Below are positions 10,754-17,401 of a DNA stretch of 64,000 bases, piece by piece. Below the pieces are notes generated by a model. That model saw only the letters and a program-made list of their open reading frames with translations. It had not been told where the DNA came from and did no database searches. Location: assembly GCF_008638305.1 (NCBI RefSeq), contig NZ_VTPZ01000005.1, forward strand, positions 223,616 to 287,615. Reading direction: 5' to 3'. A program made the position numbers and the translations under genes. This stretch comes from Pseudomonas profundi (lineage in GTDB: Bacteria; Pseudomonadota; Gammaproteobacteria; Pseudomonadales; Pseudomonadaceae). Positions within the stretch are counted from its first letter, which is position 1, and every line of letters begins with the position of its first letter.

Positions 10754-11077
10754 TCAGATTTGTGTTGGTGGAAGAGTCACCACCATGCCCTCATGCACAG
10801 CCTCCAGGATCACGCAACAGCCCAGGCGGCTCTGTGCAAGCCGGGGAGCAGCGGTACCTTCAAGCATGTCATCTTCCATACCATCCATTTCCGGCAACTG
10901 GTCCAGCCATGACTCGTCAATATAAACGTGGCAGGTAGCGCACTGGCACGCCCCTCCACAATCACCCAGGATCCCTTCCAGACCGTGGTTGGCCGCAACC
11001 TGCATAAGCGTCTGGCCCGCAACGGCTTCTACAACCTGTTGACGATCATCTGAAAAATTGAAAATTACGGTCGGCAT
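10754..11077 (-). CDS. [2Fe-2S] ferredoxin, putidaredoxin/adrenodoxin type
   Basis: A 107-residue ferredoxin. Cysteines 40, 46, 49 and 87 reproduce the Cys-x5-Cys-x2-Cys-x37-Cys spacing of vertebrate-type [2Fe-2S] ferredoxins such as putidaredoxin. Proteins of this type carry electrons to cytochromes P450 or to Rieske oxygenases. The start at 11077 has a GGAGA site 7 bases upstream and begins at the family-typical MPTVIF; an upstream start at 11122 lacks support. It is divergent from the two Rieske-homologue genes across about 200 bp. No ferredoxin reductase gene is seen in the window, so the electron donor must be encoded elsewhere. Its role as partner of the adjacent oxygenase is inference from position. 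Confidence 0.9.
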   Translation of the reverse strand: MPTVIFNFSDDRQQVVEAVAGQTLMQVAANHGLEGILGDCGGACQCATCHVYIDESWLDQLPEMDGMEDDMLEGTAAPRLAQSRLGCCVILEAVHEGMVVTLPPTQI

Positions 11078-11138
11078 TGGTGGTTCTCCGCGCCTGGTGA
11101 CTACCGGTAACTGGGTATTCATGATGCCTTACAAATTA

Positions 11139-11276: not shown

Positions 11277-12218
11277 ATGGCTAATAGCGCTTGGTGGGCT
11301 TCGGCTTTGTCCGAGGCCGTAAACAATGAAAAACCCCTGGCAGTCGTCTGCAATGGCGAGGAGCTGGTCCTGTTTCGGGACAGGCAAGGTCAGGCGTTTG
11401 CATTGGAAGACCGTTGCCCTCACCGCCGCGTGCCCCTATCCCTTGGCTGCGTTGTAGAGAGCGGAATTCAGTGTGGCTACCATGGCTGGACATTTGACGG
11501 CGCCAGTGGCGCTTGCACGGCGATACCCAACCTGCACGTCGATGAACGAGTGCCTGCCCGATATGCGGCGCGAGCCTATCCGGTGGCTGAACGAAACGGA
11601 TTTGTTCACGTCTGGTTAGGGGAAGGTGAGCCGAACGAGTCAGTGCCTGCGGCAACTTATCAGCCTGAAGGTCGCGAATATACCGGCGCGGCCACCGTCA
11701 GTATTCTGCACGAGGAATATCTTGCCGCAATGCTTGATGGACCCCACTGCCTGATCAGTTTTGACGCGGTAAAGATGACCGATTTCTTTCTGGGCGATCC
11801 CTGTCTGAAGGATAACCATCTGGTCCTTGATCGAGGTGCAGTCTGGTCTACCAGGGTGCTTCCGCCGCAATTCGTTGTCGACTATCCCCTGATCGTCCGT
11901 ACGTCCGTTCCTGTATGCGGAGGCGACATTCGCGTCGACCTTCTCACCGAGGAGGAAACGCCGCTGTGTACCGTTTTCATTGCCTCGGGAGCCAACCGAC
12001 GCAGTACCACCAGTCTCTGTTGGCGAGGCTTTCTGCACCGAAGCGAAGCCGGAGTTACACCGCTGCGCTGGCGTGCAGCGCGCCGGGCACAACGCCCACC
12101 TTTTCGGGTACATGCCCATGTCGATGGCGAAGCGTTAGCCGCTCTGCTGGTAGCACCCTCCCGTGACCTGGACCGGCTACGCGATCAATCGCTGATTCCT
12201 GTACGTGCCGCCGTCTGA
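11277..12218 (+). CDS. Rieske [2Fe-2S] oxygenase homologue with intact Rieske cluster but altered iron site
   Basis: A 313-residue protein of the Rieske non-heme iron oxygenase alpha-subunit superfamily (VanA/PobA-like). The Rieske ligands are intact: Cys47 and His49 in CPHRR, Cys66 and His69 in CGYHGW, with the usual spacing. In the catalytic domain the family pattern Asp-x2-His-x4-His becomes Asp154-Gly-Pro-His157 followed by Phe162 where the second iron-binding histidine should be. The C-terminus is short and no clear third carboxylate ligand is seen. It should therefore hold and pass electrons but may not bind the catalytic iron. The following gene shows the opposite loss. Inference: this is the electron-transfer subunit of a hetero-oligomeric oxygenase. 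Substrate unknown. Confidence 0.85.
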   Translation: MANSAWWASALSEAVNNEKPLAVVCNGEELVLFRDRQGQAFALEDRCPHRRVPLSLGCVVESGIQCGYHGWTFDGASGACTAIPNLHVDERVPARYAARAYPVAERNGFVHVWLGEGEPNESVPAATYQPEGREYTGAATVSILHEEYLAAMLDGPHCLISFDAVKMTDFFLGDPCLKDNHLVLDRGAVWSTRVLPPQFVVDYPLIVRTSVPVCGGDIRVDLLTEEETPLCTVFIASGANRRSTTSLCWRGFLHRSEAGVTPLRWRAARRAQRPPFRVHAHVDGEALAALLVAPSRDLDRLRDQSLIPVRAAV

Positions 12219-12239
12219 TTGTCCCAAGGAGAATTCACA

Positions 12240-13277
12240 ATGCACACTGTATCCACCAACGACACCGTCGCAGGGCAGCGCAGCAAGCGTCCCTCCGACT
12301 GGACTCCGGTCAATTATGATCTGCACGACACCTGGTTTCCGGTCTCGCACAGTCGCGACGTGAGCTCAAGGCCAATCCGCCGAATCATCCATTCCCAGCC
12401 TTATTTTCTCTGGCGTGAAAACGGAATACCTCAGGCGGCCGAGTTCCATCCATCGCGGCTGGAAGCCCTGCGCCACGCCAGCAGCGCCTTCACCGGAGGT
12501 TCCGGCAGCTATCCTGTTATAGAACGCTACGGCTATATCTGGGCGTGGTATGGCAACCCCGACAACGCAGACATTCAGCTGCTGCCACATATCCCCTTCC
12601 TGCCCCTGGACGGCAATATTCCGGGCTACACACAGCGGACTGTGCGGTTCGATGCCTCATCGGCGCTCTCGGTGGAAAACCTCATCGACCTGACCCACGC
12701 CGATTTCCTGCATGCCAATACCATAGGCGACGGCATCTCCGAATCCGACGTCGTCGAAGTCGAATGGACGTCCGAAACGGTAACCAGAACCCGTATGGTC
12801 ACGCAAAAGTCAGTCGCGCCGGTGATGCGCTGGGTGGGCGGGGTACGCGCCAAGTATCAAGATTTCCGTGCCGTGCTGCATATTCACTTGCGCAGCAATG
12901 TCTGCATTTCCTACCCCCGATTTCGACCTGGTTACGACGTTCCCAATCTGCAACCGTTTTTGCCGGTAGGACGGCATCGCTCCCGTTGCGACGTTACTTT
13001 CAACACCACCGCAGCGCCCTCTCCTTTTCGCTATTTGATGCCGCGCATCAATTACATCATCCAGCCTCAGGACAACTCGGTGGTACGTCCGCAGAACCAG
13101 CGCTATCTGGACGAATCAGACAGGCGTGACCTGCATTCTCGCTTCGACGCACCCGGCACTCGATACCGCTACCAGATGGAACAACTGGCTAAGCGCCAGC
13201 GCCGGGGGGACTTTTCCTACGGTACTGATGCGGAACCGGGACGTGACATCACCACATTGCTAGGCATGGATGGCTAA
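12240..13277 (+). CDS. Rieske-oxygenase catalytic subunit lacking the Rieske cluster
   Basis: A 345-residue homologue of Rieske oxygenase alpha subunits. The N-terminal fold is recognisable (DTWFPVSHSRDV at 30-41, then PVIERYGYIWAWYG at 92-105). However, all four Rieske ligands are gone and roughly 35 residues are missing where CxH...CxxH should be; only an EFHPSR remnant remains near residue 70. The mononuclear iron site is intact: Asp150, His153 and His158 in ENLIDLTHADFLH, with Asp278 in QPQDNSVV as the likely third ligand. It starts 22 bp after the preceding Rieske-containing gene with an AAGGAG site. NdmC of caffeine degradation, which lacks a Rieske domain and borrows one from NdmD, is a known precedent for such a split. 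Substrate unknown; demethylation or hydroxylation is possible. Confidence 0.85.
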   Translation: MHTVSTNDTVAGQRSKRPSDWTPVNYDLHDTWFPVSHSRDVSSRPIRRIIHSQPYFLWRENGIPQAAEFHPSRLEALRHASSAFTGGSGSYPVIERYGYIWAWYGNPDNADIQLLPHIPFLPLDGNIPGYTQRTVRFDASSALSVENLIDLTHADFLHANTIGDGISESDVVEVEWTSETVTRTRMVTQKSVAPVMRWVGGVRAKYQDFRAVLHIHLRSNVCISYPRFRPGYDVPNLQPFLPVGRHRSRCDVTFNTTAAPSPFRYLMPRINYIIQPQDNSVVRPQNQRYLDESDRRDLHSRFDAPGTRYRYQMEQLAKRQRRGDFSYGTDAEPGRDITTLLGMDG

Positions 13278-16272: not shown

Positions 16273-16468
16273 CCAGTATTCACCAAGTGCGGGTGCTTGG
16301 GTCAGAGTATCGCGAAGAGACTTTAGAAATGTCCTTCATTCGCCACGCTCCGTTCTTTTGACAGAATATCAATCTTACTACAGAATCATATCCCACTACA
16401 GCGCACAAACATGCCAGACATCAGCCGGAGCTTCTCTCTCACGCATTTGTCGGCAACAGGAGATAACA

Positions 16469-17401
16469 ATGAAAGCAGCTGTCATTACCGAACGCGGCGC
16501 CCTCCCCGTTATGCAGGACTTCAAGGAACCGGAAGCCCAGGACGGCGCGATACTGATCGACGTTGATACTGCAGGCCTCGGCGGCTGGGACGTGCTCGGC
16601 GCGTATCGACTCGGCGTAGCCTATCCCTGCGTCATCCGTGGCGAGGGCGTCGGTCGCACGGCGGAAGGCAAGCGCGTGTATTTTGGCGAACGCTCTGTAT
16701 TGCCTTTTGGCGCCTGGGCCGAGCGCACACTGGTCCCTGCCGAAGAAGTCTGGGAGGTGCCGGACCATATCGATGACCGTACCGCCATTACCATGGGTAT
16801 TGCCGCAACCGGCGCGCTGATCCCGCTGGAAACCGCAAAGATTCAACCCGGTGAGACCGTATTGATCCTCGGCGGTACCGGCACGCTCGGGCAGATCGCC
16901 CTGCAGCTTGCCCGTTATCTGGGAGCGGGCAAGGTAGTTGCCGCAGGCAGAAGTGAAGCAGCTCTGGCACGCTTGAAAGAGCGCGGAATTACCGACGCGA
17001 CGGTATGCCTCAAGGGCGACGAAACTGATGTGGCGGCACTCAAGGCCGAAGCGGGAGAAGGTTATGACGTAGTGCTTGATCTGGTGTGTGGGCAGCCCAT
17101 GCTGAATGCATTGAAGGCAACGCGATGGGGAGCGCGCATCGTAACCGTCGGCACCGGTGCGGGACGGCAACTCAATCTGGATATCGCTGACCTCCTGTTC
17201 AGGACGCTTTCATGCATCGGCACCGGTCAACGCCCTCCGGCTGACCGTCGCAAAATCTGGGAACGCTTGCTGGATATCACCACCACGGAAAACATTACTG
17301 TGGACTATGCCGAGTTCGACTTCGACGAGACGCCAAAAGCCTGGGAATCACAGGTGAATGGGCCCCACGCAAAAATTTACGCGAAGGTCGGTAAATCTTG
17401 A
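16469..17401 (+). CDS. quinone oxidoreductase-like MDR family dehydrogenase
   Basis: A 310-residue medium-chain dehydrogenase/reductase. The nucleotide-binding loop GGTGTLGQIALQLARYLGA lies near residues 130-150. The cysteine and histidine ligands of the zinc alcohol dehydrogenases are absent, so it is a zinc-free quinone-oxidoreductase type, usually NADPH-dependent. The ATG at 16469 follows a CAGGAGA site; upstream in-frame codons run back into the divergent gene's promoter and are rejected. Substrate unknown. It sits alone after the ydeP-like gene and ends at the border of the gene-poor island. Confidence 0.85.
   Translation: MKAAVITERGALPVMQDFKEPEAQDGAILIDVDTAGLGGWDVLGAYRLGVAYPCVIRGEGVGRTAEGKRVYFGERSVLPFGAWAERTLVPAEEVWEVPDHIDDRTAITMGIAATGALIPLETAKIQPGETVLILGGTGTLGQIALQLARYLGAGKVVAAGRSEAALARLKERGITDATVCLKGDETDVAALKAEAGEGYDVVLDLVCGQPMLNALKATRWGARIVTVGTGAGRQLNLDIADLLFRTLSCIGTGQRPPADRRKIWERLLDITTTENITVDYAEFDFDETPKAWESQVNGPHAKIYAKVGKS

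Follow-up and report, generated by a model that had tools for sequence, protein, structure and literature searches.

Ordinarily, both metal sites of a Rieske oxygenase are present on every chain, and each site works with the partner site of a neighbouring chain. Two adjacent genes of Pseudomonas profundi, here called P1 and P2, depart from this plan. They lie in a stretch of 64,000 nucleotides (RefSeq assembly GCF_008638305.1, contig NZ_VTPZ01000005.1, positions 223,616 to 287,615 of the forward strand), referred to below as the window. P1 keeps the ligands of the Rieske cluster and lacks the iron-ligand set; P2 keeps the iron ligands and lacks those of the cluster. We consider it highly probable that this co-inherited pair is one hetero-oligomeric oxygenase, in which the P1 cluster would reduce the P2 iron across the subunit interface.

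In the methylxanthine N7-demethylase NdmCDE (PMC4408171, PMC10380055), NdmC has no Rieske cluster and depends on the Rieske domain of another polypeptide; that domain belongs to the reductase NdmD as a fusion, and the glutathione S-transferase (GST)-like protein NdmE is also needed. In P1-P2, by contrast, the Rieske domain sits on a second subunit of oxygenase fold that has lost its iron site, and P1 has no reductase domain. No GST-like gene of the NdmE type was present among the cluster representatives scanned, in a scan that was not aimed at GST genes. The alpha3-alpha'3 complex NdmA/NdmB brings together two distinct alpha-type subunits, both of them complete (PMC12445004, PMC10380055), whereas P1 and P2 have each lost one site. 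The best solved sequence relatives of both chains include dicamba O-demethylase (DdmC) and a guaiacol O-demethylase (7qwt), which share the two-domain fold of P1 but consist of a single, complete subunit type arranged as alpha3. The pair shares the split with NdmCDE and the alpha/alpha-prime make-up with NdmA/NdmB, and fails one defining feature of each. A search of the open-access literature, with most subscription papers outside its reach, found no report of a pair in which the Rieske and iron sites are divided in this manner.

Complementary loss of metal sites

The pair consists of the following features.

11277..12218, + strand: P1, Rieske subunit of 313 amino acids, with cluster ligands C47, H49, C66 and H69; Rieske is its only Pfam match
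within 11277..12218, + strand: second domain of P1, of oxygenase fold, without the iron-ligand set
12240..13277, + strand: P2, catalytic subunit of 345 amino acids, with iron ligands H153, H158 and D278, presumed bridging residue D150 and a ligandless Rieske remnant; PF19112 at 113 bits, no Rieske match

The two genes adjoin on one strand, and both reading frames contain every residue that a preliminary description of this DNA had named (P1 C47, H49, C66, H69, D154, H157 and F162; P2 D150, H153, H158 and D278). P2 starts at ATG 12240, which is preceded by AAGGAG and agrees with the numbering of D150, H153, H158 and D278; the TTG at 12219 given in the list of open reading frames (ORFs) is probably not its true start.

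Residues of P1 were counted over 74 distinct proteins from 87 loci. The cluster ligands C47, C66 and H69 are present in 74/74 and H49 in 73/74, the remaining sequence having an unreadable residue. A second set, made up of the query and 120 proteins listed of 1327 matches (n = 121), gave C47 in 120, H49 in 121, C66 in 120, H69 in 119 and D154 in 121. Position 162, from which the second iron-binding histidine had been said to be lost, is His in none of the 74 (F 48, I 18, L 4, M 2, A 1, Y 1). The loss extends beyond that claim to the first histidine as well: position 157 is His in only 11/74, and in 7 proteins of the second set, being otherwise mostly E or Q. In a profile alignment P1 matched canonical oxygenases over residues 4-155 only (E 1.9e-35), with no similarity detected beyond; Phe162 is therefore assigned to the ligand position from the predicted fold and from how far it lies from D154 in the sequence. 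A global alignment forced between the second domain and canonical oxygenases was not trusted. This domain is the fastest-changing part of P1, with a median identity of 35% as against 54% for the Rieske part, and P1 did not match PF19112 at E 1e-3.

The counts for P2, taken over 72 distinct proteins, are complementary. E146, N147, D150, H153 and H158 are each found in 72/72, and D278 in 71 with one gap. P2 aligned by profile to canonical oxygenases over nearly its full length (E 2.7e-24), whereby D278 falls on the canonical third ligand and the cluster-binding loops are deleted. The absence of all four Rieske ligands noted earlier is borne out, and the deletion, then put at about 35 residues, amounts on the alignments to 31 when P2 is compared with one canonical oxygenase and to 36 when it is compared with P1. 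The motif C-X-H-X(15-47)-C-X2-H thus occurs in P1 and not in P2, and the 2-His-1-carboxylate iron site, by alignment, in P2 and not in P1.

The catalytic domain of P2 is of the VanA C-terminal type (PF19112; VanA_C), far above the gathering cut-off of 23.5 bits. As a control, this domain was located at 14 places in 39 genomes (L101 and L002 being one gene); unlike P2, all 13 others carry both the Rieske and the iron motifs, and the Rieske loss in P2 therefore exceeds what chance would give. Against the 4beta-methylsterol monooxygenase SdmA (NF052579) P1 scored 73.1 bits and P2 30.7 bits, below the curated cut-off of 600. A pseudogene or single-species accident was rejected, both frames being intact and conserved across many genera. 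A P2 relative of 45% identity (P0245) was seen in the actinobacterium Parafrankia elaeagni.

Linkage and co-occurrence

Among 84,980 species genomes scanned, 287 relatives of P2 were detected, and linkage was evaluated for the best 80 of these. In 79/80 the gene immediately upstream, on the same strand, is a P1; the remaining locus starts within P2, at the end of its contig. A P2 without P1, which would have spoken against the pairing, was looked for and not found wherever neighbouring DNA was available among these 80. The closest named relatives of the window P2 are those of Pseudomonas saliphila (99% identical), Halopseudomonas xiamenensis (98%) and H. bauzanensis (96%), which points to Halopseudomonas as the probable genus. 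Over 71 distinct pairs the gap between the genes ranges from about -20 to +66 nt, with 19 touching or overlapping, P2 starts having been picked by script for this measurement.

When P1 and P2 profiles were searched separately in whole genomes, as the preliminary description had suggested, they returned identical genome sets: 14/298 genomes of a family draw, 1/397 of a phylum draw and 3/234 of an order draw (the draws overlap, and each includes the window genome). In one order-level genome the three P1 and three P2 are arranged as three adjacent, diverged pairs (L134, L135, L136); the split design itself has therefore multiplied. Plasmid records gave 4 matches, and the pair was present in all 3 that were opened. 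These annotate the two genes independently, as 'Rieske 2Fe-2S protein' and as 'oxygenase' or 'dioxygenase subunit alpha'.

As a separate observation, P1 and P2 of the window share a reading frame and are separated by one TGA and 21 bases (12216-12239). Such in-frame pairs make up 18/71 distinct pairs, and the separating stop is TGA in 18/18.

Natural fusion and predicted structure

A joined P1-P2 chain was used as a query with proteins shorter than 0.55 of its length dropped, which removes the majority of single P1 and P2; of 7994 candidates scored, 9 proteins were returned. One of them, P0242, comes from a metagenome-assembled genome (MAG) of Candidatus Binatia and joins a Rieske domain of P1 type (residues 11-125, 56.5% identity with P1) to a whole P2 (119-458, 42.8% identical), the ligandless Rieske remnant included, and is without the second domain of P1. 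P0246, apparently a P1 fused with an unrelated enzyme, was set aside, and the remaining seven proteins are either ordinary oxygenases or single relatives of P1 or of P2.

The joined P1+P2 chain gave a confident joint predicted model, and both chains are predicted to keep the oxygenase fold and to associate. Comparison with solved structures assigned a complete two-domain oxygenase fold to the P1 prediction; a plain Rieske ferredoxin was accordingly rejected as an identity for P1. The solved structures in that comparison were matched through P1, and the fold of P2 is read from its sequence and its pLDDT (predicted local distance difference test). With few P2 sequences in its alignment, an earlier AlphaFold2 model showed P2 as mostly unfolded. 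A tree built by a quick method from P1, P2 and canonical oxygenases joined P1 with P2 at a support of only 56, where long branches meet.

Neighbouring genes and substrate

Four further genes of the window were compared with the 79 paired loci (L010-L089).

10754..11122, - strand: [2Fe-2S] (Fer2) ferredoxin, divergent from P1; PF00111, 37.9 bits
13352..13726, + strand: small VOC/glyoxalase-fold protein downstream of P2; PF00903, 27.5 bits
13930-16272, - strand: molybdopterin oxidoreductase of 780 amino acids, between the pair and the MDR gene
16460..17401, + strand: zinc-type (MDR) dehydrogenase/reductase; PF00107, 67.2 bits

A similar ferredoxin is encoded somewhere within the fetched stretch in 20/79, and the one of the window is the likely electron donor to the pair. 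The MDR gene recurs in 19/79, sometimes adjoining P1, and its product possibly acts in the same pathway. VOC-like proteins were found in 7/79; the start of this ORF in the window is ATG 13352, where the ORF list has TTG 13301. The molybdopterin oxidoreductase is probably unrelated to the pair, since it is present in 3/79 only. Elsewhere in the genome, whose Rieske-domain matches number 14, six such matches fall within 38 kb of another contig (G000:C53:109744-147417), probably an aromatic catabolic cluster.

The neighbours of the pair vary by lineage and include CoA-transferase, acyl-CoA dehydrogenase, SDR, P450 and DUF1302/DUF1329/MMPL genes, ring-hydroxylating alpha/beta subunits and F420 genes. 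This set of neighbours suggests hydrophobic ring compounds as substrates, with no single compound named. Relatives in LB400 and P. vancouverensis raised the idea of a resin-acid substrate, for which no confirmation was obtained. On plasmids of Novosphingobium resinovorum (L091, 20308-24015) and Croceicoccus marinus (L092, 20574-24993) the pair lies near annotated F420 genes, cofC, cofH and npdG in both and cofD and cofE in the latter; F420-dependent LLM oxidoreductases are also annotated near both pairs.

Proposed electron transfer and assembly

Complementary ligand loss, gene order (79/80), co-occurrence in identical genome sets and one natural fusion are established at the level of sequence; together with the confident joint model they support the earlier suggestion of a dedicated alpha/alpha-prime pair with one function each. 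In the mechanism that we propose, a reductase whose gene lies elsewhere would take electrons from NAD(P)H and pass them to a [2Fe-2S] ferredoxin, for example the one beside the pair, from which they would reach P1 and then P2. The P2 iron would activate O2 and hydroxylate or demethylate a substrate that is likely hydrophobic and ring-containing, with the second domain of P1 serving as scaffold; expressed on its own, P2 would probably show no activity. The residue bridging the two centres is presumably P2 D150 (72/72), by analogy with Asp205 of naphthalene dioxygenase, the corresponding aspartate of an iron-bearing domain. The preliminary description had given this role to P1 D154, which is invariant (74/74), yet the bridging aspartate belongs to the iron-bearing domain and is therefore expected in P2; D154 would lie at a silent interface and is likely structural. 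In known Rieske oxygenases the cluster of one subunit reduces the iron of its neighbour, which is about 12 Å away, whereas the iron of its own subunit is about 45 Å away (PMC12445004). A pair of cluster-only and iron-only chains fits this rule of between-subunit transfer.

How the chains assemble is a separate matter, with a dimer, an even ring (e.g. 3+3), an unequal trimer or P1 docked on a P2 trimer as the options. The mixed alpha3 ring first put forward is not supported, because two subunits have no way of alternating around a ring of three; only in a dimer or a ring with an even number of places could they alternate strictly. A subfunctionalised Rieske oxygenase, with electron-only and oxygenation-only subunits of the same alpha fold strictly alternating in such an assembly, is an arrangement we propose tentatively and with some doubt. 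A docking arrangement shares its electron path with the hetero-oligomeric oxygenase proposed above and differs from it in assembly, so that our confidence in the one overlaps with that in the other: P1 would attach as an electron-carrier subunit to a P2 homotrimer, with no alternating ring, and its second domain would only hold it in place, much as the NdmD Rieske domain may dock on NdmC. We regard this as a serious contender while stopping slightly short of favouring it. It agrees with the three copies of each subunit reported for NdmCDE (PMC10380055), with the Binatia fusion, which does without any P1 second domain, and with the low conservation of that domain; the complete two-domain oxygenase fold of P1 and the invariant residues in its second domain argue against it.

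Direct reduction of P2 by ferredoxin without a Rieske centre, P1 being a regulatory or structural partner, is very unlikely: a Fer2 ferredoxin gene does lie beside the pair and in 20/79 paired loci, but P1 retains its full set of four Rieske ligands across the family and the fusion retains exactly the Rieske domain of P1. Least credible of all is that P1 associates with some other complete Rieske oxygenase of the cell and P2 likewise, their adjacency being only historical. The 14 Rieske-domain matches would offer candidates for this, but the genes share genomes and are adjacent in every checked case, diverged paralogous pairs included.

Several points weigh against one hetero-oligomeric oxygenase as we have described it. 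The window P1 is an exception among its relatives in having H157. The second domain of P1 keeps D154 (74/74), D283 (63/74) and D/E174 (73/74), so that another use of this domain is conceivable. The joint model is of a joined chain and is judged by pTM (predicted template modelling score), an indirect sign. P0242 is a single MAG sequence on a contig of 5,426 bases and may have arisen in assembly. The analysis turned up no partner reductase. The known Rieske oxygenases are C3-symmetric (PMC12445004), which is at odds with 1:1 alternation in one ring.

Implications

Since the two genes are annotated independently in the three plasmid records opened, the enzyme that P1 and P2 would form is hidden in catabolic clusters. 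If the strictly alternating assembly is true, it would mark the first departure of a Rieske oxygenase from the three-fold rule, and its productive interfaces would all be of one kind, with every other interface silent. With the sites on two gene products, each could be mutated, swapped, titrated and redox-tuned independently, which would make electron transfer between subunits and its gating directly testable, and the P1-P2 split would offer this in a natural, widespread system.
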